Below, piece after piece: positions 8,363 to 64,000 of a DNA stretch of 64,000 nucleotides. The notes beneath the pieces were generated by a model that saw only the letters and a program-made list of their open reading frames with translations, was not told the DNA's origin and searched no databases. The stretch covers positions 1,488,001-1,552,000 of the forward strand of contig NZ_JABMLE010000001.1 of the NCBI RefSeq assembly GCF_013205025.1, read 5' to 3'. A program made the position numbers and the translations under genes. Position 1 is the first letter of the stretch, and each line of letters opens with the position of its first letter. This stretch comes from Rathayibacter sp. VKM Ac-2857 (GTDB taxonomy: Bacteria > Actinomycetota > Actinomycetes > Actinomycetales > Microbacteriaceae).

Positions 8363-9238
8363 TCAGGAGGCGTTGGCGAGCAGCGCCGTCCAGGCGATGT
8401 CCGCGAGCTTCGCCTGCCCCGCCAGCGACGGGTGGAAGTGGTCGACGTCGGAGATGTCGTCCGAGGTGACGTCGAAGTCGTGCAGGGCGCCCTGGTCGTA
8501 GACGCAGTTCGCGGTCGCGCCGCAGACGTCGGCGAGGACGTCGTTGTAGGCGTCGATCGTCGTCGAGACGTTGTCGCGGCGGGCCTGCGCCTCCGCGTCG
8601 TCCGAGGTGGGCTCGTAGAGGAGCGAGTTGCAGTTGGAGCTGCCGGCCCAGCGCGAGACGGCCTCGGAGTCGCCGCGCTCGGTCTCGAAGAAGTCGAGCA
8701 GGTTCGGCACGGAGGAGACGAAGATCGTCGCCTCGGGAGCGCCGGTGGAGAGCGTCGTGAGGGCGGTCGTCACGTTGCTGCGGAAGGCGTCCGGCGTGGT
8801 GATGTCGGCGCTGTTCTTCCGGCAGACGTCGTTCGCGCCGATCAGGATCGTGACGAGATCCGGGGCGGCGGCGACCGCCTTCTCGGCCTGGCGCGGCAGC
8901 TCGGCCGAGGTCGCGCCCTTGGAGGCGACGTTCTCGATCTCGGGCACGGCGCCGACCGACTCGCCGGCGCGGCGGGCGATCGAGTCGACCGTCTCGTCCT
9001 CGCCGGTGGTCCAGGACGCGCTCGGGCAGGGCTTGTTCTGCCCGCAGGCGGCGACGCCGACCGAGATCGAGTCGCCCATCGCGGCGATCGAGCCGGCCGC
9101 GAAGGGCAGCTCGCCCGACGCGGCGGGCTCGGTCGTCTCGGCGGGCGCCGGGGCGGAGGTGCAGCCGGCCAGCAGCGCGGCGGCGACGGCCACGACGGCG
9201 AGGACGCCGGCACGACGGGAGCGTGTGGAGCGGATCAT
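8363..9238 (-). CDS. SGNH/GDSL-family hydrolase lipoprotein
   Basis: A 291-residue secreted esterase-like protein. Residues 1-26 are a lipoprotein signal with lipobox LLAGC, so it should be tethered to the outer face of the membrane. SGNH blocks are in order: block I AAMGDSISVG (nucleophile Ser), block II around VASKGATSAE, block III ILIGANDVC, and block V DVDHFHPSLAGQAKLA (Asp and His). Several Cys residues (NKPC, DVCRKN, SSNCN, DVCGATANC) suggest extracellular disulfides. It is the last gene of the leftward polysaccharide operon and overlaps the flippase stop (ATGA). Inference: it trims or remodels acyl groups on the exported polysaccharide. Confidence 0.85.
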   Translation of the reverse strand: MIRSTRSRRAGVLAVVAVAAALLAGCTSAPAPAETTEPAASGELPFAAGSIAAMGDSISVGVAACGQNKPCPSASWTTGEDETVDSIARRAGESVGAVPEIENVASKGATSAELPRQAEKAVAAAPDLVTILIGANDVCRKNSADITTPDAFRSNVTTALTTLSTGAPEATIFVSSVPNLLDFFETERGDSEAVSRWAGSSNCNSLLYEPTSDDAEAQARRDNVSTTIDAYNDVLADVCGATANCVYDQGALHDFDVTSDDISDVDHFHPSLAGQAKLADIAWTALLANAS

Positions 9239-10950
9239 GCGGTGCCTCCCTCGGCGGCCGGGGTGGTCTGCGACGCGGGCGCGGCGGGCGTCGCCGGGCC
9301 CTTGGGCTTGGGCTTCCGGACCTGCTTCACGAACGCGAGGATCTGGTTCATGTCGCGGCGGTAGGCCGGGATCGCCATCGCGAGCGCCAGCGGCACCAGC
9401 GAGGCGAGTCCGCCGACGAGCAGGTGCACGATCGCGGGCAGATCGGTGTACGCGCCGACGGCCCAGGCCGCGCCGAACATGAACGGCACGACGAGCGCGG
9501 GGCGCAGGACGGGCACGATCACGTCGGAGCCGCGGACGAAGGTGCCGCGGATCGCCAGCCAGAAGCCGGGCACCAGCAGCGCCAGGGTGGTGAGGCCGTA
9601 GAGGAGCGCGAGGCCCTCGACGCCGTTCCACCACAGGCCCACGAAGAACGAGCCGATGACGAGCGGGCGGGTGACCACGTAGTAGACGAGCTGGCGGTGC
9701 ACGCGGCCGAGCGAGATGTAGATCCAGCCCTGCACGTTGCCGATGCCCTGCGCGATGCCCGCGATGGACAGCAGCGACAGGATCGTCGCGGAGGACGACC
9801 ACTGCGGGCCGAGCAGCAGCTCGACGAGCGGTCCGGCCAGTGCCGCGAGGACGCCGAAGGTCGGCAGCGTGAGGTAGCCGATCACGAGCAGCGCGCCGCG
9901 GACGTAGCGGCGGTAGCGCTCGCCGTCGTCCTGGAGCGAGGAGAGCACGGGCAGCGCGACGCGGCCGAGCGGTCCGTTCAGCTGCTGCAGCGGGAGCAGG
10001 AAGAGCGAGTAGGCGCGGGTGTACTGACCGAGCACGCCCGTGCCGAGCTGCGCGCCGATGAGCACGTTGTCGACGTTGCGGGCGAAGTAGTTGAGCAGCT
10101 GGACGCCGAAGATGCTGCCGCCGGTGGTGACCAGCGGGATGACCTCGCGCGAGATCTGCGGGCGGCCGAAGGTGGGGCGCGCCGCGACCCAGAGCGCGAT
10201 GAACCGGTAGATCAGCGCACCGCCCTGCAGCACGACGAGCGACCAGACGCCCCAGCCGAGGAAGGCGGCGATGATCGAGCCGATCACGCCGACGAGCATC
10301 GACACCACGTCGATCTGCGCCATCAGGCCGAACTTCATCTCCTTCTGCACGCGCGCCTGGAGCGGCATGCAGAGGCTGTTGATGAAGAGCGTCGGGGCGA
10401 CGGCGAGCGTCAGGACGACCAGCGCCTGCTCGTTGTAGATGCCGGCGATGAGCCAGGCGGAGGCGCCGATCACGATCGTGCCGACCACGCCGAGCGCGAC
10501 CGACAGCCAGAGCACGGACCGCCAGACGGTCTCGCTCATCTTCTTGGCCTGGATGATCGCGCCGGTCAGACCGAAGTCGCGGACCAGGTCCGCGACACCG
10601 ACGATCGCCGTGACGGCCGCGAGCAGGCCGAAGTCGCTCGGCGAGAGCAGGCGCGCCAGCACGATCGTGGAGATCAGCTGGATCGCGGTCTTGCCCCACA
10701 GGCCGCCCAGGGTCTGGATGACTCCGCGGCTCGCCTTGTGCCCGAGGTCGGACTTCGGCGGCAGGTTCGGCCCGTCCCCCACGGTCGGCGACTGCGCGAT
10801 CGCGTCGGTCGCCAGCGTCTCGGTGGTGTGCGCGGTGTCGTCGATCGCCGCCTCGATCTGGGCGTCGCTCGCCGTGGTGCCGTGGCGGGCGGAGGAGCCG
10901 CCCGCGGGGGTCGACCCCGTCACGCGCGCGTCGTCTCGTCGCGGTTCCAT
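9235..10950 (-). CDS. Wzx-type oligosaccharide flippase (MOP superfamily)
   Basis: A 571-residue polytopic protein. A hydrophilic N-terminus of about 75 residues precedes about 12-14 helices beginning ASRGVIQTLGGLWGKTAIQLISTIVLARLLSPSDFGLLA, the characteristic opening of bacterial polysaccharide flippases. FARNVDNVLIGAQLGTGVLGQYTRAYSLFLLP and the central PVLSSLQDD segment also fit the family. It should move lipid-linked repeat units across the membrane. The start ATG has AGGAGG 9 bases upstream and lies inside the 3' end of the preceding glycosyltransferase (31-bp overlap). The Pro/Lys/Ala-rich tail is cytoplasmic. Confidence 0.9.
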   Translation of the reverse strand: MEPRRDDARVTGSTPAGGSSARHGTTASDAQIEAAIDDTAHTTETLATDAIAQSPTVGDGPNLPPKSDLGHKASRGVIQTLGGLWGKTAIQLISTIVLARLLSPSDFGLLAAVTAIVGVADLVRDFGLTGAIIQAKKMSETVWRSVLWLSVALGVVGTIVIGASAWLIAGIYNEQALVVLTLAVAPTLFINSLCMPLQARVQKEMKFGLMAQIDVVSMLVGVIGSIIAAFLGWGVWSLVVLQGGALIYRFIALWVAARPTFGRPQISREVIPLVTTGGSIFGVQLLNYFARNVDNVLIGAQLGTGVLGQYTRAYSLFLLPLQQLNGPLGRVALPVLSSLQDDGERYRRYVRGALLVIGYLTLPTFGVLAALAGPLVELLLGPQWSSSATILSLLSIAGIAQGIGNVQGWIYISLGRVHRQLVYYVVTRPLVIGSFFVGLWWNGVEGLALLYGLTTLALLVPGFWLAIRGTFVRGSDVIVPVLRPALVVPFMFGAAWAVGAYTDLPAIVHLLVGGLASLVPLALAMAIPAYRRDMNQILAFVKQVRKPKPKGPATPAAPASQTTPAAEGGTA

Positions 10951-52802: not shown

Positions 52803-54227
52803 TCAGGCCCGGGCCGACGCCACCGCGCGCGCCAGCGCCGGGCCGTGCGCCGCCAGCACCAGGTCGCGCACCGCCGTCACCGGCAGTGACGCGGCGCCGG
52901 TCGGCAGCAGGTCCGCGTCCGAGGTCAGAACCAGCGGGGTGTCCGCCGCCGACACCGGCAGGCGACCGTGGGTGCCGCGCACCAGCGACGCGTCCAGCGG
53001 CACGAGGTTCATCGCGTAGCGGAGGCCCAGGGCCTTCTTCGCGAGGTTGCCGGCGGCCTTCGCCTTCACCAGCCGGTCGACCGGGTCGAAGAACAGCTCG
53101 GCGGGGTCGTAGCCGGGCTTGCGGTGGATGTCGACGCCGCGCGCGAAGTCCGGCGCGCGATCGTCGTCGAGCCAGTAGTAGTAGGTGAACCACGCACCCG
53201 GCCGCGCCACCAGCACCAGCTCGCCCGAGCGCTCGTGGTCGAGGCCGTACCGCGCCTGCGCCTCGCGGTCGAGCACCTCGTCCACCCCGTCCAGCGCCTC
53301 GAGCAGCGCGCGCACCCGCGGCAGGTCCGCGGCGTCCGGCACGTAGACGTGCGCGATCTGGTGGTCCGCGACCGCGAAGGCGCGCGAGGTCCACGGGTCC
53401 AGCTGCTCGCGGCCGTCCTGCACGTAGACCTCGAGCAGGCCCGCGCGCCGCAGCGCCCGGTTGACGTCCACGGGGGTGTCCGCCGCCGCGATCCCGTACT
53501 CCGCCACCACGACGACCGACGCGCCGAGCGCCTCCGCGTCGTCGAGCAGCGGCGCGAGCACCACATCCAGCTCCGACGCCGCCCGCCGCGCCTCGGGCGA
53601 GTCCGGCCCGAAGCGCTGCAGGTCGTAGTCGAGGTGCGGCAGGTACGCCGTGGTCAGCTGCGGCGGGCCGGAGCCGTCGCCCGCGAGCACGTGCCGGGTC
53701 GCGTCCACCATCCACTGCGTGGAGCGCAGCGACGCGGTCGGCCCCCAGTACTGGAACAGCGGGAAGGCGCCCAGCTTCCCGACCAGCTCGTCGTGCAGCG
53801 CCGGCGGGCGGACGTAGGCGTCCGGCGACTTGCGGCCGTCGGCGTGGTAGATCGGCCGCGGCGTCACGGTGACGTCGGTCGTCGCTCCCATCGCGTACCA
53901 CCAGCCGATGTTGGCGGCGCGGTAGGGCTCGCCGTCGGACAGTCGGCGGGCCGTCTCCCAGACCTTCTCCCCCGTCACCAGGCGGTTGTGCTGGCGCCAG
54001 AGGTGCACCTCGCCGAGGTCGCGGAAGTACCAGCCGTTGCCGACGATCCCGTGCTGCGCGGGCATCGTGCCGGTGAGCATCGACGACTGCACGCTGCAGG
54101 TGACGGCCGGCAGGATCGTGTCCAGCGGCAGCTGCCCGCCGGCCCGGGCGAGCCGGGACAGCCGTGGCATGTCGGCGAGCGCCGTCGCGGTGAGGCCGAC
54201 CACGTCGAGCAGCAGCACCGGCGTCAC
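52803..54227 (-). CDS. eboF: EboF-like alkaline phosphatase/nucleotide pyrophosphatase family protein
   Basis: A 474-residue alkaline-phosphatase-superfamily hydrolase. PVLLLDVVGLTATAL gives the first metal Asp. TILPAVTCSVQSSMLTGTMPAQHGIVGNGWYFRD gives the nucleophile region (Thr/Ser after PAVT). YLPHLDYDLQRFGPDS, VVVVAEYGI and ADHQIAHVYV supply further metal His/Asp positions. It has no signal peptide, so it acts in the cytoplasm. In Ebo clusters this position is held by EboF. GTG start overlaps the EboE stop (GTGA); last gene of the operon. Substrate unknown, probably a phosphorylated intermediate of the cluster's product. Confidence 0.82.
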   Translation of the reverse strand: MTPVLLLDVVGLTATALADMPRLSRLARAGGQLPLDTILPAVTCSVQSSMLTGTMPAQHGIVGNGWYFRDLGEVHLWRQHNRLVTGEKVWETARRLSDGEPYRAANIGWWYAMGATTDVTVTPRPIYHADGRKSPDAYVRPPALHDELVGKLGAFPLFQYWGPTASLRSTQWMVDATRHVLAGDGSGPPQLTTAYLPHLDYDLQRFGPDSPEARRAASELDVVLAPLLDDAEALGASVVVVAEYGIAAADTPVDVNRALRRAGLLEVYVQDGREQLDPWTSRAFAVADHQIAHVYVPDAADLPRVRALLEALDGVDEVLDREAQARYGLDHERSGELVLVARPGAWFTYYYWLDDDRAPDFARGVDIHRKPGYDPAELFFDPVDRLVKAKAAGNLAKKALGLRYAMNLVPLDASLVRGTHGRLPVSAADTPLVLTSDADLLPTGAASLPVTAVRDLVLAAHGPALARAVASARA

Positions 54228-55411
54228 AGCGCGACCTCCTCGGCGAGAAGGGCAGCGACCGGGACCGGCGCGGCACCCTGCTCCAGCACCGCGGCACGTG
54301 CCTGCGGCGTCAGCAGGTGCTCCGCCGCCCAGGCCAGCTCGGCGCCGATGCCGACCGACAGATCGCTCGGCGCGTCCGCGAGCACCGCCCAGGTGTAGGT
54401 CTCCACATCGAGGTGGATCTCGTCGTACGGCCAGGCCGCGTCGACCGCAGAGACCGCCTCGGCCAGCACCGCGGTGGTCGCCGACAGCGGCGCGGCCGGC
54501 CGGTGGTGCAGCGGCACGTGGAAGTGCACACGCCACGGCCCGGCACCGGGCAGCGTGTCGAGCGCCTCGGGCAGATCGTCGACGCGGAGCACTCCGCCAG
54601 CCCCGTTCTCGCGGGTCTGGTGCAGGTAGCGCTTCTCCACGAACGCCCCGACGGCGGCGCGGGCGGCCGGGTCCGCCGGGTCCTCGACGTGCAGCGCGGC
54701 CGAGGCCTGCACCTTCACCACGCGCAGTCCCGCGTCGCGGATCCGCCGGACGGCCGCGGCGGGGTCGGCGAACGACACCGCGAGGTGGCAGGTGTCGAGG
54801 CAGACGCCGACGTAGGCGGGGTCGACCAGGCCGATCCGCGGGTGCAGCCAGGCGACGACGTCGTCGACCGTGTCCAGGATGCAGCCCGGCTCGGGCTCGA
54901 TCGCCAGGCGGATCGCGTGCCCGGTCGAGCGCCGCAGTTCGCGCAGCTCGTCGACCAGCCGCGCGAGCTGCCGGACGGCCGCCGCGTCCTGCTCCGCGCC
55001 CCAGCCCTCGCGCCAGCCCAGCGGCAGCGTCGAGATGCTGCCGTCGGCGCCGGCGGGCAGCAGATCGGCGAGGATCCGCGCGCAGTCGATCGTGTAGGCG
55101 AGGCGCTCGGGCGTGGTCCAGTCGGGCCGGTAGACGTCGAGCTTCACCACCTCGGCGTGGAAGGCGGCGTAGGGGAACGCGTTCAGCGTCCGCACCTCGA
55201 GGCCGTTGCGCTCGAGCGCGGCGCGCAGCACGGCGCGGTCCTCGCGGCTGGCGACCAGCCGGGCGGCGAGATCGCGCGGGATCCACAGCCCCACTCCCAC
55301 GGTCTCGAGCCCCGCGGCGACGCGGGCGGGCCCGGCGTAGACGTCGAGTTGGCGCACGACGCCGTCGAGGTCCTCGGCCGGGTGGACGTTGGTGCAGTAG
55401 GAGAGGTGCAT
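54224..55411 (-). CDS. eboE: EboE, TIM-barrel 'metabolite traffic' protein
   Basis: A 395-residue xylose-isomerase-like TIM barrel. The start MHLSYCTNVHPAEDLDGVVRQLD is a signature of EboE. VRTLNAFPYAAFHAEVVKLDVYRPDWTTPERLAYT, IRLAIEPEPGCILDTVDDVV, VCLDTCHLAVSF, VVKVQASAALHV, WRVHFHVPLH and IHLDVETYTW follow, giving Glu, Asp/His and His metal-ligand positions of the fold. The ATG shares one base with the TatD-gene stop (TGATG). In studied clusters EboE is needed for moving a precursor out of the cytoplasm, by an unknown mechanism. Confidence 0.87.
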   Translation of the reverse strand: MHLSYCTNVHPAEDLDGVVRQLDVYAGPARVAAGLETVGVGLWIPRDLAARLVASREDRAVLRAALERNGLEVRTLNAFPYAAFHAEVVKLDVYRPDWTTPERLAYTIDCARILADLLPAGADGSISTLPLGWREGWGAEQDAAAVRQLARLVDELRELRRSTGHAIRLAIEPEPGCILDTVDDVVAWLHPRIGLVDPAYVGVCLDTCHLAVSFADPAAAVRRIRDAGLRVVKVQASAALHVEDPADPAARAAVGAFVEKRYLHQTRENGAGGVLRVDDLPEALDTLPGAGPWRVHFHVPLHHRPAAPLSATTAVLAEAVSAVDAAWPYDEIHLDVETYTWAVLADAPSDLSVGIGAELAWAAEHLLTPQARAAVLEQGAAPVPVAALLAEEVAL

Positions 55412-56298
55412 CAGACGACCTCCGCCACGCGCGGCGCGCCCCGAAGGATCGAGTTGCCCTCGAAGCTGCGCCCCATCGCATCGACCGCGTCGAAGCCCGG
55501 GATCGGGTCGAGGTTCAGCCGTCCGCTCTGCCCGTAGAAGTCGATCGGATTCTGCCAGAGCAGCCGGTCGACCTCGGCGGCGCTGAAGCCGGCGACGAGC
55601 AGCAGGTGCCCGGTCTTCGCGGTGGTCAGTGGATCGGAGCGGCCCCAGTCGGCGGCGGAGTTGACCAGCACGCGGTCCAGGCCGATCCGCTCGACGAGGG
55701 TCACCAGGCGGGTCTCGTCCATCTTCGTGTCCGGGTAGATCGAGAAGCCCAGCCAGCAGCCGGAGCCGAGGACGAGGTCGACGGTCGTCTCGTTGAGGTG
55801 GTCGACGACGACGAGGCCGGCGTCGATCCCGGACTCGGCGACGACGTCGAGCGTCTGCTGCGTGCCGGCCGCCTTGTCGCGGTGCGGGGTGTGCACGAGC
55901 ACGGGCAGGCCGTGGTCCTTTGCGAGCTCGAGCTGGTGGCGGAAGACGGCGTCCTCCTCCGCGGTCAGCGAGTCGTAGCCGGTCTCGCCGACCGCGACGA
56001 CGCCGTCCTTGGCGAGGTAGCGGTCGAGCTCGGGCAGCACCTCGCGGCAGCGCGGGTCGTTGGCCTCCTTGGGGTTGAGGCCGATGGTGCAGTGGTGCCG
56101 GATGCCGTACTGCGCGGCGCGGAAGCGCTCCCAGCCGATCAGGGCGTCGAAGTAGTCGGTGAAGGAGCCGACGCTGGTGCGCGGCTGGCCGAGCCAGAAC
56201 GACGGCTCGACCACGGCGCGGACCCCGGCGTCGTGCATCGCCTGGTAGTCGTCGGTGGTGCGGGAGGTCATGTGGATGTGCGGGTCGAAGATGCGCAT
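55411..56298 (-). CDS. eboB: EboB, TatD-family metal-dependent hydrolase
   Basis: A 295-residue TIM-barrel hydrolase: MRIFDPHIHMTSRTTDDYQAM (first metal HxH), VVAVGETGYDSLTAEED (Glu), HGLPVLVHTPHRDKAAGTQQTLD (His), VVVDHLNETTVDLVL (His), VLVNSAADWGRSDPLTTAKTGHLLL (Asp). All metal positions are occupied, so it should be active as a hydrolase or nuclease. RxTDDYxAM at the start is typical of the Ebo-cluster branch. 75 bp separate it from the isomerase-EboA gene, the only sizeable gap in the operon. Confidence 0.87.
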   Translation of the reverse strand: MRIFDPHIHMTSRTTDDYQAMHDAGVRAVVEPSFWLGQPRTSVGSFTDYFDALIGWERFRAAQYGIRHHCTIGLNPKEANDPRCREVLPELDRYLAKDGVVAVGETGYDSLTAEEDAVFRHQLELAKDHGLPVLVHTPHRDKAAGTQQTLDVVAESGIDAGLVVVDHLNETTVDLVLGSGCWLGFSIYPDTKMDETRLVTLVERIGLDRVLVNSAADWGRSDPLTTAKTGHLLLVAGFSAAEVDRLLWQNPIDFYGQSGRLNLDPIPGFDAVDAMGRSFEGNSILRGAPRVAEVV

Positions 56299-56373
56299 CG
56301 TCGCGCCTTTCTCGTGAGGGGTCGTGATGGTGTGCGGGGCCGGCGGTCGTGTCGAGGGACGCGCCGGGGTCCC

Positions 56374-57867
56374 TCAGCTCGGCAGGAGCACCGCCAGGTC
56401 GTCCGGCACCCCGCGGCCGGCGGCGCGGCGCTCGTCGGCGAAGCGGCCGGCCATCGCGGCGAGCTCGGGGTCGCTCCGCCGCTCGAGACCGGAGACGGCC
56501 GCGAGCGGGATCCCGCAGAAGACGAGCTTGAGCACGCCGTGCCGCCAGGCGTGCGCGTCGAGGTGCTCCTCGGCGAAGCGGCCCATCGCCGCCGCGACGA
56601 GGCGGGTGTCGTTGGCGCGCAACGCGTCCGCGATCAGCTCGCGACCGGCCGCGGCGACCGGCTCCCCCGCGCGGCCGGCGGCGGTGAGCGCGTGCAGCCC
56701 GACCAGCACGCCGCGGCGCTCGGCGTCGTCGCCGCCGCGGTAGAGGCGGAGGAGCAGCGCGGCGAGGTCCTCGTCGTCGAGCGCGGAGGCCGCGGCCGCG
56801 ATCAGCGCCGAGCGCGCCGCGTCGTCCTCGGTGCCGTGCACGAGTCCCTGCGGATCCGCGTCGGGGCGGAGCGGCGCGCGACCGGCCTCCCGCCCGGCGG
56901 CCGGGAAGTAGCGCTCGATCCGCCGCGGCTGCTCGCGCAGGACGGCGCAGGCGCCGGCGGTCCACGGGTGCTGCGGCGACTCCGCCCGCCCGCCGGCTGC
57001 TCCGATCGCCGCCCGCATCGCCGCGAGACTCGCGACGGCCAGGCGCGGCGCGTCGTGCGAGTGCCGTGGCAGCTCCACCGCGGCGACCCCGCGGTAGCCG
57101 ATCTCCTCGAGCGTCGCGAAGGCGGCCGCGAGATCGAGCACGCCGGCGCCGAGCTCGAGGTGCTCGTGCCGCTCGGGCCGCATGTCGTCGACCTGCACGT
57201 TCACCAGCAGGCCGGCGGCACTGCGGAGGGCGCCGACGACGCCGTCCGGCTCGACGACCACGCAGTGGCCGAGGTCGACGGTGAGGCCGAACGACTCCGG
57301 GTCGCCGAGCTCGCGCCGCAGCAGCAGCGCGTCCGCGACGGTCTCGACGAGCATGCCGGGCTCCGGCTCGAAGCCGAGCCGCACGCCGTAGCGCTCCGCC
57401 TCGGTGACGACGCCGCGCATCCGCTCGACCAGGAGCCGCCAGCCGCGGGCGCGCTCCATCCCCTCGGGCAGCACGCCCGACCAGAGCGAGACGGCGTCGG
57501 CGCCGAGCAGCGCGGCGATCTCGATCGCGCGGTGCAGGAAGGCCAGCCGCGGGCCGGCCTCCTCGTCGACCAGGGTCGGCCGGTGCTTCGCGAACGGGTC
57601 GAGGAGGTAGCGGGCGCCGGTCTCGATCACCACGCGGAAGCCCAGCTCGTCGAGCCGCCTGCGCAGGGCGAGGCTGCGCTCGCGGATGTCGTCGGCGAAC
57701 GGATCGAGGTGCGGGTTCCCGAGGGTCAGCGCCACCGCCCGGTAGCCGGCGGCGTGCAGCACGGTCAGGGCGTCGTCGAGGGTGTGGTCGGCGAAGCCGT
57801 TGGTGCCGTAGCCCAGGACGGGGCCGACGCTGAGGACGGGGCCAGCAGTCGTGTGCAGGTCGCTCAT
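56374..57867 (-). CDS. Fusion of sugar-phosphate isomerase/epimerase-like TIM barrel with EboA
   Basis: A 497-residue two-domain protein. Residues about 15-275 are an AP-endonuclease-2/xylose-isomerase-like barrel: GYGTNGFADHTLDDALTVLHAAGYRAVAL, GADAVSLWSGVLPEG, VRLGFEPEPGMLVETV, TVDLGHCVVVEPDG, VQVDDMRPERHEHLELGAG, GYRGVAAVELPRHSHDA, with Glu, Asp/His and His ligands kept. Residues about 300-497 are an EboA domain (RYFPAAGREAGRAPL, DDEDLAALLLRLYRGGDDAERRGVLVGLHAL, HAWRHGVLKLVFCGIPLAAVSGLERR). EboA is normally a separate protein. ATG overlaps the prenyltransferase stop (ATGA). Fusion suggests the two act on the same intermediate. Confidence 0.85.
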   Translation of the reverse strand: MSDLHTTAGPVLSVGPVLGYGTNGFADHTLDDALTVLHAAGYRAVALTLGNPHLDPFADDIRERSLALRRRLDELGFRVVIETGARYLLDPFAKHRPTLVDEEAGPRLAFLHRAIEIAALLGADAVSLWSGVLPEGMERARGWRLLVERMRGVVTEAERYGVRLGFEPEPGMLVETVADALLLRRELGDPESFGLTVDLGHCVVVEPDGVVGALRSAAGLLVNVQVDDMRPERHEHLELGAGVLDLAAAFATLEEIGYRGVAAVELPRHSHDAPRLAVASLAAMRAAIGAAGGRAESPQHPWTAGACAVLREQPRRIERYFPAAGREAGRAPLRPDADPQGLVHGTEDDAARSALIAAAASALDDEDLAALLLRLYRGGDDAERRGVLVGLHALTAAGRAGEPVAAAGRELIADALRANDTRLVAAAMGRFAEEHLDAHAWRHGVLKLVFCGIPLAAVSGLERRSDPELAAMAGRFADERRAAGRGVPDDLAVLLPS

Positions 57868-58745
57868 GTGATGTCCGCCGAGACCCTCGGGCGCCGCAGC
57901 ACGACGGCCCCGAGCGCGTCGAGCCCCAGCAGGGCCGCGCCGAGCTCGGGCCGCCGCAGCCCGGCGAGCGCCGCCTGCAGCGGGACCATCCCCGCGATGC
58001 CCGAGCGGGTGGCCGTCCGGGCCGAGGCCGCATCGGGCGTCCGCACCGCCCGCAGCTGCGGCATCAGCACGAGCGCGATCCAGCGGGCGATCGCGACTCC
58101 GACGACCGCCCCGATCGCCGGCCCGCCCTTCGCGCGGACCGCCCCGACGCCCAGGGCGAGGGCGAGCGCGGCCGTGCCGGTCGCCGCCGCACCCGCGATC
58201 ACCGGGCGGGTGCCGTGCACCTCACCGCGCGAGAGCACGGTCACGCCGAGGGTGTGCGCCGCGACCGCTGCCGAGGCCGGCGCCGCCGCGCGCACGCCGG
58301 ACGCTCCCGCGCCGAGCAGCACGTCGAGCCCGCGGCAGGCCGCCATCACGACCGGCCCGAGCGGAGTCGGCTTGGCCAGCAGGTCGTACGACCAGATGCT
58401 CGCCGCGAGCGGCACGCTCAGCAGGAGCGAGCGACGCCCGTCGACCAGTGCCGCGACCGCGATCCCCGCGCCGGTCAGCCCGGCGGCCAGCCCGAGCGCC
58501 GCTCCGCGCCGGATCCGCCCCGACGGGATCGGCCGCTCCGGCCGCTCCACCGCATCGAGCTCGGCGTCGGCGTAGTCGTTCAGCGCCATGCCCGCGGAGT
58601 AGAGGAGCGCGGACGCCAGCGGCAGCGCGACGGTGCGCGGGCCGGGCGCCCGGCCCGCCCACGCCGCTCCGGCCACCGTGTCGCCGAGCACCGAGAGCGC
58701 CGCCTTGGCGCGCACGAGCTCGAGCCAGTCGCGCAGCTCAGCCAT
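57864..58745 (-). CDS. eboC: UbiA-family prenyltransferase (EboC-like, SCO3242 type)
   Basis: A 293-residue integral membrane prenyltransferase with about eight helices. The first Asp-rich motif is NDYADAELDAVERPERPIPSGRI, an intact NDxxDxxxD followed by the RPIPSG signature. The second Asp motif position is weak (SYDLLAKPTPLGPVVMAACRGLDVLLG has YDxxxKPTPLGP...RGLDVLLG). It should attach an isoprenoid chain to a small polar acceptor at the membrane. The start ATG (58745) lies 8 bp inside the upstream cyclase gene; its stop overlaps the isomerase-EboA ATG. This is the family called SCO3242-type prenyltransferases in actinobacteria. Confidence 0.86.
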   Translation of the reverse strand: MAELRDWLELVRAKAALSVLGDTVAGAAWAGRAPGPRTVALPLASALLYSAGMALNDYADAELDAVERPERPIPSGRIRRGAALGLAAGLTGAGIAVAALVDGRRSLLLSVPLAASIWSYDLLAKPTPLGPVVMAACRGLDVLLGAGASGVRAAAPASAAVAAHTLGVTVLSRGEVHGTRPVIAGAAATGTAALALALGVGAVRAKGGPAIGAVVGVAIARWIALVLMPQLRAVRTPDAASARTATRSGIAGMVPLQAALAGLRRPELGAALLGLDALGAVVLRRPRVSADIT

Positions 58746-59997
58746 GGCGGATCGGTCCGCCCGCCACGAGCGAGCGCTGGGCGACGGCCGCCCCGGTGCG
58801 CGCCGACCAGGCGACCAGCTCGGCGGTCTGCTCCGCGAAGCCGTGCACGTCGCTCCCCCATGGGTCCTTGAAGAAGAAGCCCAGCTCGGCGACCGGGCCC
58901 GAGACACCGGCCGCGTCGGCGAGCGACATCAGTCGCGCCAGGTCCAGGATCAGCGGCGCGGCGAGTGCCGAGTCGTACGCCGACCAGATGGTCTGCACGG
59001 TGATCCGCGAGCCGAGGAACCCCTCCGCGTGCACGTGGTCCCACGCCGTCTTCACGTCGCCGAGGTCCGGCACGTTGTCGATGTGCAGCGGAGTGACGAC
59101 CTCGTCGCCGAGCAGGCTTCGCAGTCCGCGGTTCTTCGAGACCAGCTTCGAGCGGACGGCCTCCGGGTCGGCGAGGGTCTGCCCGTCGCCGCCGCCGAGC
59201 AGGTTCGCGCCCGCCCAGGACAGCACGCGCATCCCGCGCGCCGTGAACATCGGCGCGAGCACGCTGCGGAGCAGGGTCTCGCCGGTCTTGCCGTCCTGTC
59301 CCGCGATCGGGACGCCCGCCTCCGCGGCCCACTCCTCGAGCGCGGGCAGCGCCAGCGCGGTGGAGGGGGTGAAGCAGACGTAGGGCGAGCCTGCGGTCAC
59401 CGCGGCGAGCGCGCTGATCGAGCTCGGCGGCAGGACCGTCTCGCCGGGCCGGGCGAGCGCGGCGCGCAGGGCGGCCAGGTCGTGGAACTCGGGGCGGTCC
59501 TTCGGCAGAACCTCGGTCGAGGCGACGTCGATCACGACGACCCGGGCGAGCGCGTGCCGCTCGCGGAACTCGACGATGTCGGCCGCCTGGCGGTCGATCT
59601 CGTCCTGCTGCGAGCCGCCCTCGACGCCGAAGGAGCGGCGGATCTCGCCGTCGGTCGCGTCGAGCCGGTCGGCGACCTCGGCGACGACGGAGGTCGGGAA
59701 CATCCCGCCGGCCGCCAGGCCCATCGCCTTCTCGAGCAGCGGGGTCGACGAGACGTCGTGCCCGCCGATCACGATCGCGTCGAAGCCGGCGAGCGGCACG
59801 TCCTCGAAGGCGGGGGTCGCGGTGGCGCAGCCGTTGCTGGGCGCCGCTCCCGAGGCGATGGCGTGCAGGCCGACGGCGGCCGTGGTGGCGACGCTGCCCC
59901 GGGCTCCGATCAGCCAGAGGCCGATGCGCTCCTGCTGCGGGGCGCGGTCGGCGGTGGGGGTGGTGCCGGTGGTGCCGGTGGTGGTGGACGAGGTCAT
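58738..59997 (-). CDS. Inositol-3-phosphate-synthase-like sugar-phosphate cyclase
   Basis: A 419-residue member of the myo-inositol-1-phosphate synthase family. NAD-binding GLWLIGARGSVATTAAVG near 26-43, FTPSTALALPALEEWA, AGQDGKTGETLLRSVLAPMF, LSWAGANLLGGGDGQTLA, SKNRGLRSLLG, TAWDHVHAEGFLGSRITVQTIWSAYDSALAAPLILDLARL. Lys of GQDGKTGET and the SKNRG region correspond to active-site parts. It heads the operon (AGGAGAG before the ATG), where canonical Ebo clusters use the AroB-like EboD. Inference: it makes a cyclitol phosphate that the prenyltransferase or EboA/EboE proteins use. Housekeeping inositol synthesis is the alternative. Confidence 0.83.
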   Translation of the reverse strand: MTSSTTTGTTGTTPTADRAPQQERIGLWLIGARGSVATTAAVGLHAIASGAAPSNGCATATPAFEDVPLAGFDAIVIGGHDVSSTPLLEKAMGLAAGGMFPTSVVAEVADRLDATDGEIRRSFGVEGGSQQDEIDRQAADIVEFRERHALARVVVIDVASTEVLPKDRPEFHDLAALRAALARPGETVLPPSSISALAAVTAGSPYVCFTPSTALALPALEEWAAEAGVPIAGQDGKTGETLLRSVLAPMFTARGMRVLSWAGANLLGGGDGQTLADPEAVRSKLVSKNRGLRSLLGDEVVTPLHIDNVPDLGDVKTAWDHVHAEGFLGSRITVQTIWSAYDSALAAPLILDLARLMSLADAAGVSGPVAELGFFFKDPWGSDVHGFAEQTAELVAWSARTGAAVAQRSLVAGGPIRHG

Positions 59998-60032
59998 CGT
60001 TCTCTCCTGTCTGTGGGGGTCGTTCGTGGATG

Positions 60033-60059
60033 CGTCATTCGGGGGGACGTCATTCGGGG
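60033..60059 (-). promoter_or_regulatory. Direct repeats upstream of the Ebo-type operon
   Basis: CGTCATTCGGGG occurs at 60033-60044 and again at 60048-60059, 15 bp apart. A third TGACG lies in TTGCGTCACC near 60079. They sit between the divergent cyclase and ROK-regulator genes, 36-62 bp upstream of the cyclase ATG, and may be the regulator's binding sites. Confidence 0.4.
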
Positions 60060-60176
60060 TCTCCTCGCGCGTCGAGATTGCGTCACCTCGCGGCGACTGC
60101 TTTCCTCAGGTGTGCCGAGCCGCGACCCGTCCTCCCGAGCAGTCGCCTGCGACATCCGAGCGGGCGGGCGCTGAGC

Positions 60177-61370
60177 GTGGGCGTGCGGGCCGGCTCGCAG
60201 ACCGGCGACCTGCTGCGGCTCTTCGCCGACGGCCGTCCGCGGACCCGCGCGGAGCTGGTCGAGGAGACGGGACTCGCTCGCACGGCGGTGATGACGCGGC
60301 TCGACCTGTTCTTCGAGCTCGGCCTGATCACGCACCTCGACCGCGCGCCGTCGACCGGCGGCCGCCCGTCGGCACGGCTGGTCTTCGACCCGTCGGTCCG
60401 CGCGTTCCTGACCATCGACCTCGGCGCGACGCACTCGACGATCGCGCTGACCGACTTCGACGGCCGCATCGTCGTCGAGCGGCGCGAGGAGCTCGACATC
60501 GCGCAGGGCCCGATCCGGGTGCTCGACCACGCGCTCGACGTCTGCGACGAGATCCTCGCCGACGCCCACCTGGCGCCCGAGGCGCTGGCCGGCTTCGGGC
60601 TCGGCGTCCCGGGGCCGGTCGAGCACGCGAGCGGCCGCCCGGTGCGCCCGCCGATCATGCCCGGCTGGGACGGCTTCGACATCCCGAGCTACATCCGGCG
60701 CCGCGTCGACACGACGGTGCTCGTCGACAACGACGTGAACCTGCTGGCCCTGGGCGAGCGCGCCTCGCGCTTCCCGCACGCGCAGGACCTGATCTTCGTG
60801 AAGATCAGCACCGGCATCGGCTCGGGCATCGTCTCGGGCGGGGTCCTGCAGCGCGGTGCGCTCGGCGCGGCCGGCGACCTCGGTCACGTCCAGATGCCGC
60901 GCACCGCCCCGGAGGCGGCGGACGGCCGCGACGGCGACCTCGAGGCGCTCGCGAGCGGCGGGGCGCTGGTGCGCGCGCTCGCCGAGGCGGGCCGCGACGT
61001 GCACTCGGTCCGCGATCTGCTGGCGCTGCTGCGCGACCGCGACCCCGAGGCGATCGAGGCGGCGCGCATCGCTGGCCTGCAGATCGGCGAGGTCCTCGCC
61101 ACCTGCGTGAGTCTGCTGAACCCGTCGGTGATCGTGCTCGGCGGCAGCATCGCACTCGCCGCCCCGGAGATCCTGGCCGGGGTGCGCGAGGTCGTCGACC
61201 GGCGCTCCCTGCCGCTGGCGACCCAGCGCCTGCACGTCGTGACCGCCGAGCTCGGCGGCAGCGGCGGCGTGCGCGGCGCCGCGCTGATGCTGCGGCAGCA
61301 CCTCCTCGGCCCGAGCAACGTCGACGCGTTCCTCGAGCAGCTCCGCGCGCAGAGCCTCGCCGAGCGCTGA
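60177..61370 (+). CDS. ROK-family transcriptional repressor
   Basis: A 397-residue regulator. N-terminal winged helix: SQTGDLLRLFADGRPRTRAELVEETGLARTAVMTRLDLFFELGLI. Then the ROK sugar-kinase-like fold: AFLTIDLGATHSTIALTDFDGRIV, GLGVPGPVEHASGRPVRPPIMPGWDG, VLVDNDVNLLALGERASRF, IFVKISTGIGSGIVSGGVL, GAAGDLGHVQMP; the zinc-site region after GH is degenerate. Such proteins sense sugars or sugar phosphates. GTG at 60177 (or 60183) gives a normal length; an in-frame ATG at 60030 adds an unlikely Arg/Ser-rich leader. It is divergent from the Ebo-type operon and probably controls it. Confidence 0.82.
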   Translation: MGVRAGSQTGDLLRLFADGRPRTRAELVEETGLARTAVMTRLDLFFELGLITHLDRAPSTGGRPSARLVFDPSVRAFLTIDLGATHSTIALTDFDGRIVVERREELDIAQGPIRVLDHALDVCDEILADAHLAPEALAGFGLGVPGPVEHASGRPVRPPIMPGWDGFDIPSYIRRRVDTTVLVDNDVNLLALGERASRFPHAQDLIFVKISTGIGSGIVSGGVLQRGALGAAGDLGHVQMPRTAPEAADGRDGDLEALASGGALVRALAEAGRDVHSVRDLLALLRDRDPEAIEAARIAGLQIGEVLATCVSLLNPSVIVLGGSIALAAPEILAGVREVVDRRSLPLATQRLHVVTAELGGSGGVRGAALMLRQHLLGPSNVDAFLEQLRAQSLAER

Positions 61371-61390: not shown

Positions 61391-62587
61391 TCAGGAGCGC
61401 ACCCCCGCACGGTCGGAGGCGGACGGGTCGGACGCTGCCGGGTCGGACGCTGCAGGGTCGGTCGTCTCCCGCGAGATGCCACTTGTGAGCTCGACACGCC
61501 GTGAATCCTCGTCAGAAGTGGCATCTCGCGGAGTGGCAGAGGCGCCGGCCACCGCGGCGGCGACCGCGGCGTCGATCCGCCTCTGCTCGCCCGCGGCGCG
61601 GCGGCGGCGGCGCACGACCGCCAGCACGATCAGCCCGGCGAGCAGCGCCAGCAGCACCAGAGCGCTCCACGGCACGGCCGCGGTCGAGGCCTCGGACGAG
61701 ACGGCGGCGACCTCGGGCACGGCGGCCGGGTCGGCGGCCTGGCCCGCGAAGTCGGCGGTGACGACGGTGCCGGTCAGCGCGATCCGGGCGGTCGCGACGA
61801 AGAGCGGCCATACCCCGGCGACGGTGACGCTCCGGCTGGTCGAGCTGCCCGGGAGCAGCTCGGGCAGCGGCTCCGGATCGGTCGCGGCGACGCTGCCGAG
61901 GCCGAAGAGACCGGAGACCGCGAGCTCGGCGCCCGGGGCGAGGCGGGTGTTGCCCGCGTTGGTGACCGTGTAGTCGATGGTGGTCGTGCCGGGAGCGAAG
62001 GGGTTCCACTCGCCCTGGTACGAGACGGCGAGGCCGTCGACCGAGAGGCGCGGGGCGAGGTCGCCGCCGACGCGGAGGTACATCCGCGAGCCGAGGCGGC
62101 GGTCGACCGAGACCCCGGTCTCGCCCTGGACGAGGATCGACGAGACGACCCCGGCGGCGTAGTCGCCCGGCACGGCGTCGGCCGGCACCTCGAGCTGGAA
62201 CGGGATCTGCACGCTCTCGCCCGCGGGGACGACGACGTCCGGGGCCTCGAAGGAGATCCAGCTGCCCAGCTGGGTGGACGGCTCGGCGGCCGGCAGGAGA
62301 TCGAGCTGCCCCGCCTCCGTGAGGAAGCCGTCGGAGCCGTAGACGCGGAAGGTCTGGTCCTCGTCGTCGTAGTTGGAGACGATCAGCGCGTCGCTCAGCT
62401 GCCCGCCCGGCTCGAGCGCGTAGGCGTAGTTCGGCCGGTCGCTGCCCTGCTCGGTGTCGGCGGGCCGCACCCCCCAGGTCACGGCCGAGGTCGCCGTCTC
62501 CGCGAGGGCCTGCGCCGGCAGCGCAGCGGCCCCGAGCCCGACGACGAGCAGGACACCGAGCGAGCGGAGTGTGGAGCGGAACATCAT
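61391..62587 (-). CDS. DUF916 (WxL-interacting protein-like) membrane-anchored surface protein
   Basis: A 398-residue exported protein. Signal 1-29 ([20 protein letters not shown]). The mature part begins TSAVTWGVRPADTEQGSDRPNYAYALEPGGQLSDALIVSNYDDEDQTFRVY, the usual DUF916 opening, followed by a second beta domain (APRLSVDGLAVSYQGEWNPFAPGTTTIDYTVTNAGNTRLAPG). One helix near 305-327 and an Arg-rich stop-transfer place the C-terminal tail inside. The tail (about 352-372) is encoded by a 63-bp palindromic element, then DPAASDPAASD-type repeats. In Firmicutes such proteins bind WxL proteins and peptidoglycan; here it directly follows a WxL-like gene. Confidence 0.83.
   Translation of the reverse strand: MMFRSTLRSLGVLLVVGLGAAALPAQALAETATSAVTWGVRPADTEQGSDRPNYAYALEPGGQLSDALIVSNYDDEDQTFRVYGSDGFLTEAGQLDLLPAAEPSTQLGSWISFEAPDVVVPAGESVQIPFQLEVPADAVPGDYAAGVVSSILVQGETGVSVDRRLGSRMYLRVGGDLAPRLSVDGLAVSYQGEWNPFAPGTTTIDYTVTNAGNTRLAPGAELAVSGLFGLGSVAATDPEPLPELLPGSSTSRSVTVAGVWPLFVATARIALTGTVVTADFAGQAADPAAVPEVAAVSSEASTAAVPWSALVLLALLAGLIVLAVVRRRRRAAGEQRRIDAAVAAAVAGASATPRDATSDEDSRRVELTSGISRETTDPAASDPAASDPSASDRAGVRS
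61469..61531. repeat. 63-bp palindromic element, copy 1 (inside coding sequence)
   Basis: Ends are perfect 16-bp inverted repeats (CCGCGAGATGCCACTT / AAGTGGCATCTCGCGG) around a 31-bp centre containing CGACACGCCGTGAA. The whole element lies in frame in the 3' part of the DUF916 gene and encodes about 21 residues of its cytoplasmic tail. A second copy of equal length is at 62618-62680. Confidence 0.92.
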
Positions 62588-62743: not shown

Positions 62744-64000
62744 CTAGCCGAGCGCCGTGAGCGTCAGCGTCGCCGTGTAGGTGCCGGTTCCGACCGACAG
62801 CGGGAGCTGCAGGTCGAGGTCGGCGCCGAGGACCGAGGATCCGGTCGGGTGCCCGGCCGCGGCGGAGCCGAGGACGCGAGCGGTGGCGAGGCCCTCACCC
62901 GAGACGAACCCGGAGACGACGGGGGCGCCGGCGACGGCACCGCCCTCGTTCTCCAGGACCTCCGGGGTCCAGCCGAGGTACTTGCCCGAGACCGTCTGCG
63001 TTCCGGCGCGGAACTCGCTGATCTGAGCCGAGACCGACCAGGCCGGCGCGGCCAGGCGCGAGTCGGTCACGCGGACCGGCACGAGCTCGCCCGAGGCGGC
63101 GAAGTGGTCGCCCTTCTCCTCCGCGACACCGAGGTTCACCAGGTTGCTGGTGCCCTCGAGGCTCCAGGTGAGCTCGCCCTCGCGGGCCTCGGGCACGATG
63201 ACCGCGACGGCCTGGTCGCCCTGCGCCGCAGCGCCGGCGGCCGTGCCGGTGAAGTCCCCGTCGACCCCGGCGGCGGTGTTGCCCGCGCCGAAGTTGACCG
63301 CCGGAGCGTTCTCGGCCAGCGTGATCCGCCCGCCGACCGTCGAGCCCGCGAGCTGGACGTTGCCGGAGTTGCCCGAGAGCACCAGATTCCCGCCGACGGT
63401 GTTGCCGAGCGCGGCCGCGGAGCCGTCCTCGTTCGCGCCGAGGAGCACGCCGCGCGAGGATCCGCTGACCGTGAGCGAGCCGCCGACGATCGCGCCGCCG
63501 ACGCTCACGCCGAAGTCGCTGCCGGCGAAGGTCGCGTCGCCGCCGACGCTGGTGCGCGCCACGTCGACGTAGTTCGCCGCGTCGGTGCTGACCGAGCCGT
63601 CGACCGAGACGTCGCTGAACTCGACGTCGATGCCGCCCGCCTCGACCATGCCCGCGACGGTGAGGTCGCGGAGGTAGAGGAAGCCGGCGCGCGAGCCCTC
63701 GGAGAACGACACGACGTCGCCCCCGACGCTGGTGCCGTCGATCGAGATGCCGTACGCGTCCGTGCCGATGACGTCGCCCTCGATCGTCGCCGAGGTGGCG
63801 TCGAGCCAGGCGTCGTCGCCGACGGTGATCGAGCCCTGCACGACGACGTTGCCCAGCACGCAGGTCTCGCCGGCGGCGACGTTCAGGTCGCCCGCGATCG
63901 TCGTGTTGCCGAGCTCGGTCGTGCAGTCGGTCGTCGCCGCGAAGGCGGACGGCGCGGCGACCATCGCGAGGGAGGCGGCCGCGAGGACCGCCGTGGGCGT
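62744..64000 (-). CDS. WxL-domain-like secreted protein with beta-helix-like repeats (5' end beyond window)
   Basis: Open to the window edge; at least 418 codons are visible. The visible start is the end of a signal peptide (AVLAAASLAMVAAPSAFAA). Residues to about 240 are stacked short repeats (NTTIAGDLNVAAGETCVLGNVVVQGSITVGDDAWL, TSVGGDVVSF, NTVGGNLVLSG, STVGGRITLAEN), suggesting a beta-helix or bactofilin-like stack. The C-terminal about 150 residues look like a WxL domain: APAWSVSAQISEF and GKYLGWTPEVLE carry the two W motifs and the end is a typical TGTYTATLTLTALG. It lies directly upstream of the DUF916 gene, as expected for a WxL pair. Likely peptidoglycan-associated. Confidence 0.75.
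   Translation of the reverse strand, partial: TPTAVLAAASLAMVAAPSAFAATTDCTTELGNTTIAGDLNVAAGETCVLGNVVVQGSITVGDDAWLDATSATIEGDVIGTDAYGISIDGTSVGGDVVSFSEGSRAGFLYLRDLTVAGMVEAGGIDVEFSDVSVDGSVSTDAANYVDVARTSVGGDATFAGSDFGVSVGGAIVGGSLTVSGSSRGVLLGANEDGSAAALGNTVGGNLVLSGNSGNVQLAGSTVGGRITLAENAPAVNFGAGNTAAGVDGDFTGTAAGAAAQGDQAVAVIVPEAREGELTWSLEGTSNLVNLGVAEEKGDHFAASGELVPVRVTDSRLAAPAWSVSAQISEFRAGTQTVSGKYLGWTPEVLENEGGAVAGAPVVSGFVSGEGLATARVLGSAAAGHPTGSSVLGADLDLQLPLSVGTGTYTATLTLTALG

Follow-up and report, generated by a model that had tools for sequence, protein, structure and literature searches.

In this study we describe an ebo operon of Rathayibacter sp. VKM Ac-2857 in which an inositol-phosphate synthase (Ino1) stands where the cyclase EboD would be expected. 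The operon lies in a stretch of 64,000 nucleotides, here called the window (contig NZ_JABMLE010000001.1, positions 1,488,001 to 1,552,000). We put a probability of roughly 60% on the reading that this is an Ino1 form of the operon, in which a dedicated inositol-phosphate synthase replaces EboD and the product is a prenylated cyclitol or a cyclitol-derived compound. The replacement of EboD by Ino1, as proposed in an earlier note on this DNA, is well supported, because no surveyed locus holds both cyclases, 79 of 80 genomes are without an EboD-grade protein, the cluster Ino1s form a separate clade and motif residues are shared between the two cluster types. The genes of the loci, the mutual exclusion of the two cyclases, the clade formed by Ino1, the intact motifs and the neighbourhood were all observed directly. 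Six coupled genes occupy the minus strand from 52803 to 59997, in the order Ino1, UbiA, TIM+EboA, TatD, EboE, EboF:

58738-59997, minus strand: Ino1-type NAD-dependent cyclase (inositol-3-phosphate synthase, A. fulgidus-like), 419 amino acids, first gene of the operon
57864-58745, minus strand: UbiA-superfamily prenyltransferase, EboC counterpart (SCO3242 family), 293 amino acids
56374-57867, minus strand: TIM+EboA fusion, whole gene, 497 amino acids
57010-57762, minus strand: xylose-isomerase-like TIM barrel (PF01261, 124.8 bits), N-terminus of the fusion, residues 36-286
56389-56826, minus strand: EboA domain (NF035938, 141 bits, cut-off 50), C-terminus of the fusion, residues 348-493
55411-56298, minus strand: TatD-like metal hydrolase, EboB counterpart, 295 amino acids (PF01026, 67.2 bits)
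54224-55411, minus strand: EboE, TIM-barrel 'metabolite traffic protein', 395 amino acids (NF035939, 417.9 bits, cut-off 250)
52803-54227, minus strand: EboF, alkaline-phosphatase-superfamily phosphodiesterase-like, 474 amino acids (PF01663, 207.7 bits)

Adjacent genes overlap by 1-8 bases, except for a gap of 75 bases ahead of TatD, and EboF starts with a GTG that overlaps the stop of EboE. Coordinates and domain searches thus confirm the earlier description of six coupled genes for EboA-, B-, C-, E- and F-type proteins, with Ino1 first and EboD absent. Several marks of an ebo operon are present: EboE, the EboA domain, and the coupled EboB (TatD-like) and EboF (PF01663) genes. The window also has the composition of an SCO3242-type cluster, as its UbiA protein reaches 314 bits on NF045897, 'SCO3242 family prenyltransferase' (cut-off 260), with Ino1 before it and TIM and EboA after it. 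On the EboC equivalog NF035940 the same protein stays at 139.6 bits (cut-off 250), and the fusion scores 47.4 on the full EboA_family model NF035937 (cut-off 320) while passing the EboA domain model. The TatD protein is 61-72% identical to the TatD of 13 other ebo loci and 98% identical to that of one locus of the same genus.

EboD was found neither in the operon nor elsewhere in the genome with a PF01761 search and an EboD profile. The genome has a single DHQ-synthase (dehydroquinate synthase, PF01761) match, which is on a different contig and scores 143.8 bits on the EboD profile, compared to 606 for true EboD. An EboD elsewhere in the genome, which would have spoken against the swap, was therefore rejected.

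The same picture emerged in other Actinomycetota. The EboA domain was searched for in 246 genomes of the phylum and found at 12 places in 11 of them, the window counted; EboE was searched for in 394 genomes of the class and found in 98, of which 90 were over the cut-off. We analyzed 99 loci besides the window (14 + 85, 3 of the 14 having been picked through Ino1), with 5 further loci bearing a shortened EboE left out of the count. The loci were scanned as six-frame open reading frames with local profiles, and matches of at least 60 bits were counted; these profiles came from few sequences (Ino1 from 3 actinobacterial proteins, EboD from 5 plasmid proteins), and one EboD-type protein (L183) was among those used for the TIM profile. 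EboE stands alone in 5 of the 99 loci, so that 94 clusters remain. Ino1 is present in 88 of them (85/91 once the three loci chosen for Ino1 are removed) and EboD in none, and 83 show the full order Ino1-UbiA-TIM-EboA-TatD-EboE-EboF. The Ino1 form is the usual ebo form in Actinomycetota. That no locus has both cyclases supports the swap; the word 'variant', in the sense of a peculiarity, has to be given up. Among the six clusters without Ino1, three (L115, L149, L150) lie at contig ends, two (L050 and L107) are each the second cluster of a genome that has Ino1 in its other cluster, and L144 has no Ino1 within its 15 kb. In L144 a Gfo/Idh oxidoreductase gene (8728-9903) lies about 14 bases upstream of UbiA, at the position of Ino1.

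For whole genomes the EboD profile was run on 80, nearly all with Ino1-type clusters (14 of the 94 genomes are outside this set). It gave 606 bits in one metagenome-assembled genome, G762, and no more than 198 bits in any of the remaining 79. Outside the phylum the situation is reversed. A public scan with an EboE alignment confirmed 578 loci, and among the best 80 of these, 78 of them non-actinobacterial by title, EboD was seen in 63, Ino1 in none and neither cyclase in 17. Plasmids of Deinococcus, Azospirillum, Ketogulonicigenium, Roseivivax and Aureibacter carry the EboD form, annotated as 3-dehydroquinate synthase, and Streptomyces plasmids carry the Ino1 form under NCBI's names. In the cyclase-less loci L198 and L214 no cyclase of a third kind was seen by eye among roughly predicted neighbours; upstream in L198, likewise by eye, are a sugar ABC transporter and a Gfo/Idh-like oxidoreductase.

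The Ino1 of the window carries both Pfam domains of myo-inositol-phosphate synthase (MIPS; PF07994 156.5 bits, PF01658 102.1 bits), and its best solved structure is A. fulgidus MIPS (1u1i, 220.7 bits). D235, K237, K284, K288, K316, D342 and K377 (window numbering) are invariant in all 85 aligned actinobacterial cluster Ino1s and are kept in four haloarchaeal copies and in Gemmatirosa. We take this Asp/Lys set to be the catalytic residues of MIPS; two of its lysines are alanines in variant A. fulgidus chains. Because these residues are invariant and A. fulgidus MIPS is closest, the cluster Ino1 should work as a cyclitol phosphate synthase, with a substrate specificity that is predicted from the family. 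Ari2, an enzyme of aristeromycin synthesis, makes a five-membered cyclitol phosphate, and the cluster cyclase might do the same instead of forming inositol phosphate. The solved five-membered cyclitol phosphate synthase 6k96 is indeed a relative, although a distant one (41.2 bits). The far closer match to A. fulgidus MIPS and the retention of all catalytic residues checked make such a product improbable.

A tree of 53 of 125 Ino1 sequences, including 33 of the 85 actinobacterial cluster copies, places the sampled actinobacterial cluster copies in a single clade (support 97/99). Haloarchaeal Ino1 adjoins this clade (87/87), Gemmatirosa Ino1 branches outside these two groups, and the remaining Ino1s from the family of the window, which are of the mycothiol type, are distant. 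The distance is seen in scores as well: the window Ino1 reaches 46.1 bits against M. tuberculosis 1gr0 and 43.2 bits on the mycothiol-type equivalog TIGR03450 (cut-off 638). The tree proposed in the earlier note thus gave the cluster copies a clade of their own. The note had further held that grouping with housekeeping enzymes together with being the only copy would count against the swap; the cyclase does not group with the mycothiol type, and it is the only copy, being the sole PF01658 match of the genome. This last point would fit an Ino1 that lies in the operon by chance and supplies inositol for housekeeping (mycothiol or phosphatidylinositol). However, Ino1 is absent from 115 of 150 genomes of the family (35 have it), and the best match in a search for MshA in the window genome was 263.4 bits (cut-off 462.5), so that the sole copy fits a dedicated enzyme. 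Among 36 Ino1 places in the family the Pfam domain match spans 327-330 bases in 32 and 315 bases in four, including the window; one genome (G305) carries one Ino1 of each length, and Terrabacter sp. Root85 (G763) likewise has a longer-match Ino1 beside its cluster copy. With the separate clade, the Ino1-less relatives and MshA below its cut-off (phosphatidylinositol synthase was not searched), we rejected the housekeeping role, which we regard as the least probable of the alternatives.

Ino1 also occurs in other surroundings. Halomarina Ino1 (L270), within the haloarchaeal group, adjoins glycosyltransferases, and no ebo-like cluster was found there. A different Ino1-branch cluster in Roseomonas (L272) and Hymenobacter (L275) consists of Ino1, a YcaO-like protein, a Gfo/Idh oxidoreductase and a TIM isomerase, with a methyltransferase, an MBL-fold protein and a glycosyltransferase as extra genes in Roseomonas. 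In Methylobacterium (L273, unannotated), on the same branch, Ino1 and a TIM gene alone were detected.

Do the two forms of the cluster make related compounds? The motifs of the shared proteins were compared between all actinobacterial loci plus Gemmatirosa ('Ino1') and all other bacterial loci ('EboD'). In UbiA, N56, D57, D60, D64, Y120 and R138 are kept in all of 84 Ino1-type, 59 EboD-type or other and four haloarchaeal sequences, and R68, K125 and E175 in nearly all of them. In EboF, T43, D200, E243, Y244, D288, H289 and H293 are kept in at least 98% of 96 Ino1-type, 64 EboD-type and four haloarchaeal sequences. When EboF is aligned to phosphonoacetate hydrolase, E-Y replaces its D-H and Q replaces its H, which suggests a metal site altered in both cluster types. 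The extra TIM gene differs: it is found in 84/88 Ino1-bearing clusters and in 1/68 EboD-type loci, and this one locus had entered the TIM profile. The counterpart of EboD is therefore Ino1 plus the extra TIM protein. TIM and EboA share one frame in the window and in 6/94 loci (L055, L060, L106, L142, L162, L172). The fusion seen in the earlier note is real; as a general feature it was rejected. It unites two adjacent genes locally and therefore says little on the coupling of two steps, which the note had read into it.

It might be possible that Ino1 does not take over the step of EboD and instead adds a different head group, so that the two types share prenylation and traffic proteins and make different compounds. 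Ino1 and EboD are different folds, and their presumed sugar phosphates differ, glucose 6-phosphate for Ino1 and sedoheptulose 7-phosphate for EboD; the latter has been proposed in PMC5133447. The near confinement of the extra TIM gene, and of some neighbours, to the Ino1 form points the same way. The equal motif residues of UbiA and EboF across types and domains of life, and Gemmatimonadota EboE and EboF lineages that are found with either cyclase, speak against it. On balance we consider this alternative possible, the strongest of the rivals, and still unlikely.

The Gemmatimonadota evidence is as follows. Plasmid 2 of Gemmatirosa kalamazoonensis (L184) and genome G836 (L291) carry TatD-EboF-UbiA-Ino1-TIM with a divergent EboE, and EboD was not found in either stretch. 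A third genome, G845, is probably the same organism as the plasmid carrier (EboE at contig 4 76419-77588, against 76407-77591 on the plasmid), and the EboD profile found no EboD-grade protein in it; EboE occurs in 3/150 Gemmatimonadota genomes. Trees were built on subsets (EboF 52 of 164, EboE 69 of 180, TatD 61 of 165, UbiA 45 of 150), with a quick method for EboE and TatD. The EboF tree pairs Gemmatirosa, which has Ino1, with L190, an EboD-bearing Gemmatimonadota contig (100/99), as does the quick EboE tree (95); the quick TatD tree pairs it with the EboD-type Deinococcus locus L181 (95) and is flagged for a meeting of long branches. Since the EboE and EboF of Gemmatirosa sit with those of an EboD-bearing contig, the switch seems to have occurred within Gemmatimonadota too. 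The simplest reading of these trees would be that the cyclase was switched a second time in Gemmatimonadota and that UbiA has a mixed history. In haloarchaea, plasmids of Halobaculum, Halocatena and Natronococcus (L269, L271, L278) carry TatD-TIM-UbiA-TIM with Ino1-EboF, and Haladaptatus has the same set with Ino1 not detected.

EboE-like genes also occur alone. Nine such genes were noted, each in a stretch that has no further ebo gene (L131, L160, L163, L174, L175, L229, L231, L210, L248), and the seven included in the EboE tree (all except L163 and L175) form their own clade with a support of 100 in the SH-like approximate likelihood ratio test (SH-aLRT). The shortened EboE homologue of L176-L180 (family f82) covers the first 242 model positions only, and no other ebo gene was detected nearby.

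The newest lead from this analysis is a link to the oxidation of sugars by secreted proteins. BLAST clustering of flanking genes grouped 55 proteins from 54/94 clusters (9/13 families, 16/29 genera), and 39 of these proteins are encoded upstream in the same orientation as the cluster; the representative bears glucose/sorbosone dehydrogenase (GSDH), PKD, CBM6, ThuA and 3-keto-disaccharide-hydrolase domains and a signal peptide, the latter judged by eye. With neighbour profiles counted at 40 bits, GSDH-like genes were found in 48/94 actinobacterial and 12/68 EboD-type loci, ThuA in 28/94 and 0/68, and 3-keto-disaccharide hydrolase in 37/94 and 1/68. In three of the 12 GSDH-positive EboD-type loci the gene lies within the extent of the cluster, and in seven it is on the other strand. 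Genome-wide density (119 PF07995 matches in 125.7 Mb of 19 actinobacterial genomes, 121 in 136.5 Mb of 27 EboD-type genomes) would predict about 0.8 and 0.7 instead of 48 and 12, for areas outside the core genes of 0.82 and 0.84 Mb; sizes are rounded, the expectation follows another detection rule than the observed counts, all 12 positive loci come from genomes within the EboD sample, and related genomes do not count as independent. A polyprenyl synthase lies near five clusters from four families in the BLAST clustering (one representative checked in Pfam) and, by profile, in 9/94 actinobacterial and 0/68 EboD-type loci. Secreted-type TIM proteins (PF01261) form one group from 29 loci.

ScyE-like matches occur in 3/94 actinobacterial and 2/68 EboD-type loci; in S. 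camelliae a ScyD/ScyE-family protein (243 bits) is encoded directly upstream of Ino1. Clusters of both types are thus tied to secreted oxidoreductase-like proteins. According to PMC6282210 (mBio 2018), ScyE is periplasmic, the scytonemin monomer is retained in the cytoplasm of ebo mutants, and a sorbosone dehydrogenase is mentioned as periplasmic marker. Pyrroloquinoline quinone (PQQ) was rejected as the GSDH cofactor: PqqE is over the cut-off in 1/20 Ino1-type and 10/27 EboD-type genomes. The window genome (PqqE 56.2 bits, cut-off 381) probably makes no PQQ; it might take it up.

In Rathayibacter the secreted GSDH starts about 5 kb upstream of the operon, beyond the window edge, so that the coordinates below continue past the window end:

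60030-61370, plus strand: ROK-family protein, divergent from the operon, start codon uncertain (PF00480, 169.5 bits)
64083-65096, past the window end: Tat-type secreted TIM protein
65167-68613, past the window end: secreted GSDH-PKD-Big protein, 1148 amino acids

Beyond the GSDH protein come genes for a sugar-binding protein, a sugar ABC ATPase and a Gfo/Idh-like protein (to 74251; L292). Together with the ebo operon and the ROK gene, the genes of 64083-74251 look like one sugar-oxidation locus. The ROK protein is possibly a sugar-responsive regulator of the operon; ROK genes flank 10/94 related clusters in the neighbour clustering. The ROK gene is separated from the secreted sugar-oxidation genes by the genes of two exported-looking proteins (61391-62587 and 62744-63964), one with a sub-threshold match to WxL-interacting proteins, the other repeat-rich and with no Pfam match.

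Several observations weigh against a simple replacement of EboD by Ino1 that leads to a prenylated cyclitol. L050, L107 and L144 have neither cyclase, nor do the 17 public loci mentioned above, several of which are lone EboE genes or contig ends. G762 has an EboD contig plus a separate UbiA-Ino1-TIM contig; two halves of one locus were rejected, as the ends do not overlap and the two UbiA fragments differ. Unless a binning error has mixed this genome, which is possible, exclusion of the two cyclases is not absolute at the genome level. In the UbiA tree the Gemmatimonadota group, including EboD-linked L190, joins the actinobacterial UbiAs (99/94), in disagreement with EboE and EboF, so that the history is not that of one simple block. 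EboA and full EboE were not detected in the haloarchaeal loci, and Halobaculum UbiA is below both cut-offs (177.7 to EboC, 169.9 to SCO3242), for which reasons we call these clusters ebo-like only. As neighbours, polyprenyl synthase, ThuA and 3-keto-disaccharide hydrolase hardly occur outside the Ino1 form, a sign that the two forms differ somewhat in function. Finally, UbiA enzymes usually use aromatic acceptors. The nearest solved chain to the cluster UbiA by sequence, digeranylgeranylglyceryl phosphate synthase (6m31, 31.9 bits), prenylates a non-aromatic alcohol beside a phosphate. A Bacteroidota EboC homologue farnesylated quinolines in vitro, according to PMC9235831. Both an aromatic and a non-aromatic acceptor are possible.

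If Ino1 indeed replaces EboD, an apparently catalytically complete Ino1 would substitute for a cyclase of the DHQ-synthase fold and, judging from its family and active site, convert glucose 6-phosphate to inositol 3-phosphate with NAD+. The cyclitol might then be altered by the TIM-barrel proteins, the extra TIM protein being the partner of Ino1, and by TatD/EboB, in an order and by a chemistry that we infer, as we do the product and purpose of the cluster. At the membrane, the EboC-like UbiA enzyme would add a prenyl group to the altered cyclitol, and EboF would act on the resulting compound. The product would be a small prenylated cyclitol or cyclitol-derived compound acting at or outside the membrane, and the locus is tied to secreted sugar oxidation (GSDH-like proteins, secreted TIM proteins, a sugar transporter) here and in about half of the relatives. 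A wider hypothesis, which we think doubtful, covers both ebo types and haloarchaea as well as bacteria: a cyclitol would be built up into a prenylated ring compound, which secreted beta-propeller oxidoreductases (GSDH-like, ScyD/ScyE) would use as a cofactor, an electron carrier or a carrier lipid, and this one compound could be made via EboD or via Ino1 and one TIM enzyme. In that case the ring is possibly aromatised to a quinol by the dehydratase-like TIM-barrel proteins, and the substrate of EboD would be a hexose phosphate such as glucose 6-phosphate and not sedoheptulose 7-phosphate.

The ebo cluster is widespread. A systematic swap to a family with a known usual substrate and product narrows what the product of the cluster can be and opens the first step to a test, namely whether inositol is a precursor. 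As there are two cyclase forms, cross-complementation could tell whether both make the same compound, and the secreted sugar-oxidizing neighbours provide a physiological lead independent of scytonemin. An inositol-phosphate synthase in an ebo cluster was not reported among the literature matches listed, and the word 'inositol' is missing from the main texts of PMC5133447, PMC6282210, PMC9235831, PMC6092422 and PMC6529634. EboD-less and EboA-less operons are described in PMC5133447, with no Ino1 form in the sections examined. For S. coelicolor, SCO3242 and SCO3243 (myo-inositol phosphate synthase) appear alongside the CDA cluster in a listing in PMC3610822. The gene set has been seen before, since NCBI model names show that SCO3242 proteins are known to curators, but no discussion of it turned up among the literature matches listed. 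The Ino1 form is a real, widespread and apparently undescribed form of a known cluster.

Four systems can be compared with the operon of the window. The haloarchaeal clusters (L269, L271, L278) share Ino1 as the sole cyclase seen, UbiA, TatD, EboF and TIM-barrel genes, and differ in gene order and in lacking EboA and a full-length EboE match. A. fulgidus-type myo-inositol-1-phosphate synthase (1u1i, 3qvs) is the best solved match to Ino1, with the catalytic lysines kept; set against it, the window enzyme is located in an ebo operon. The S. camelliae plasmid (L185) has the identical order Ino1-UbiA-TIM-EboA-TatD-EboE-EboF, with TIM and EboA as separate genes and different neighbours. The known ebo operon (eustigmatophyte and bacterial, scytonemin-associated in Nostoc punctiforme, EDB of Pseudomonas) shares the EboA domain, TatD/EboB, an EboC-like UbiA, EboE, EboF and the tight coupling, whereas the window has Ino1 for EboD, an extra TIM-barrel gene fused to EboA, and a UbiA protein under the EboC equivalog cut-off.

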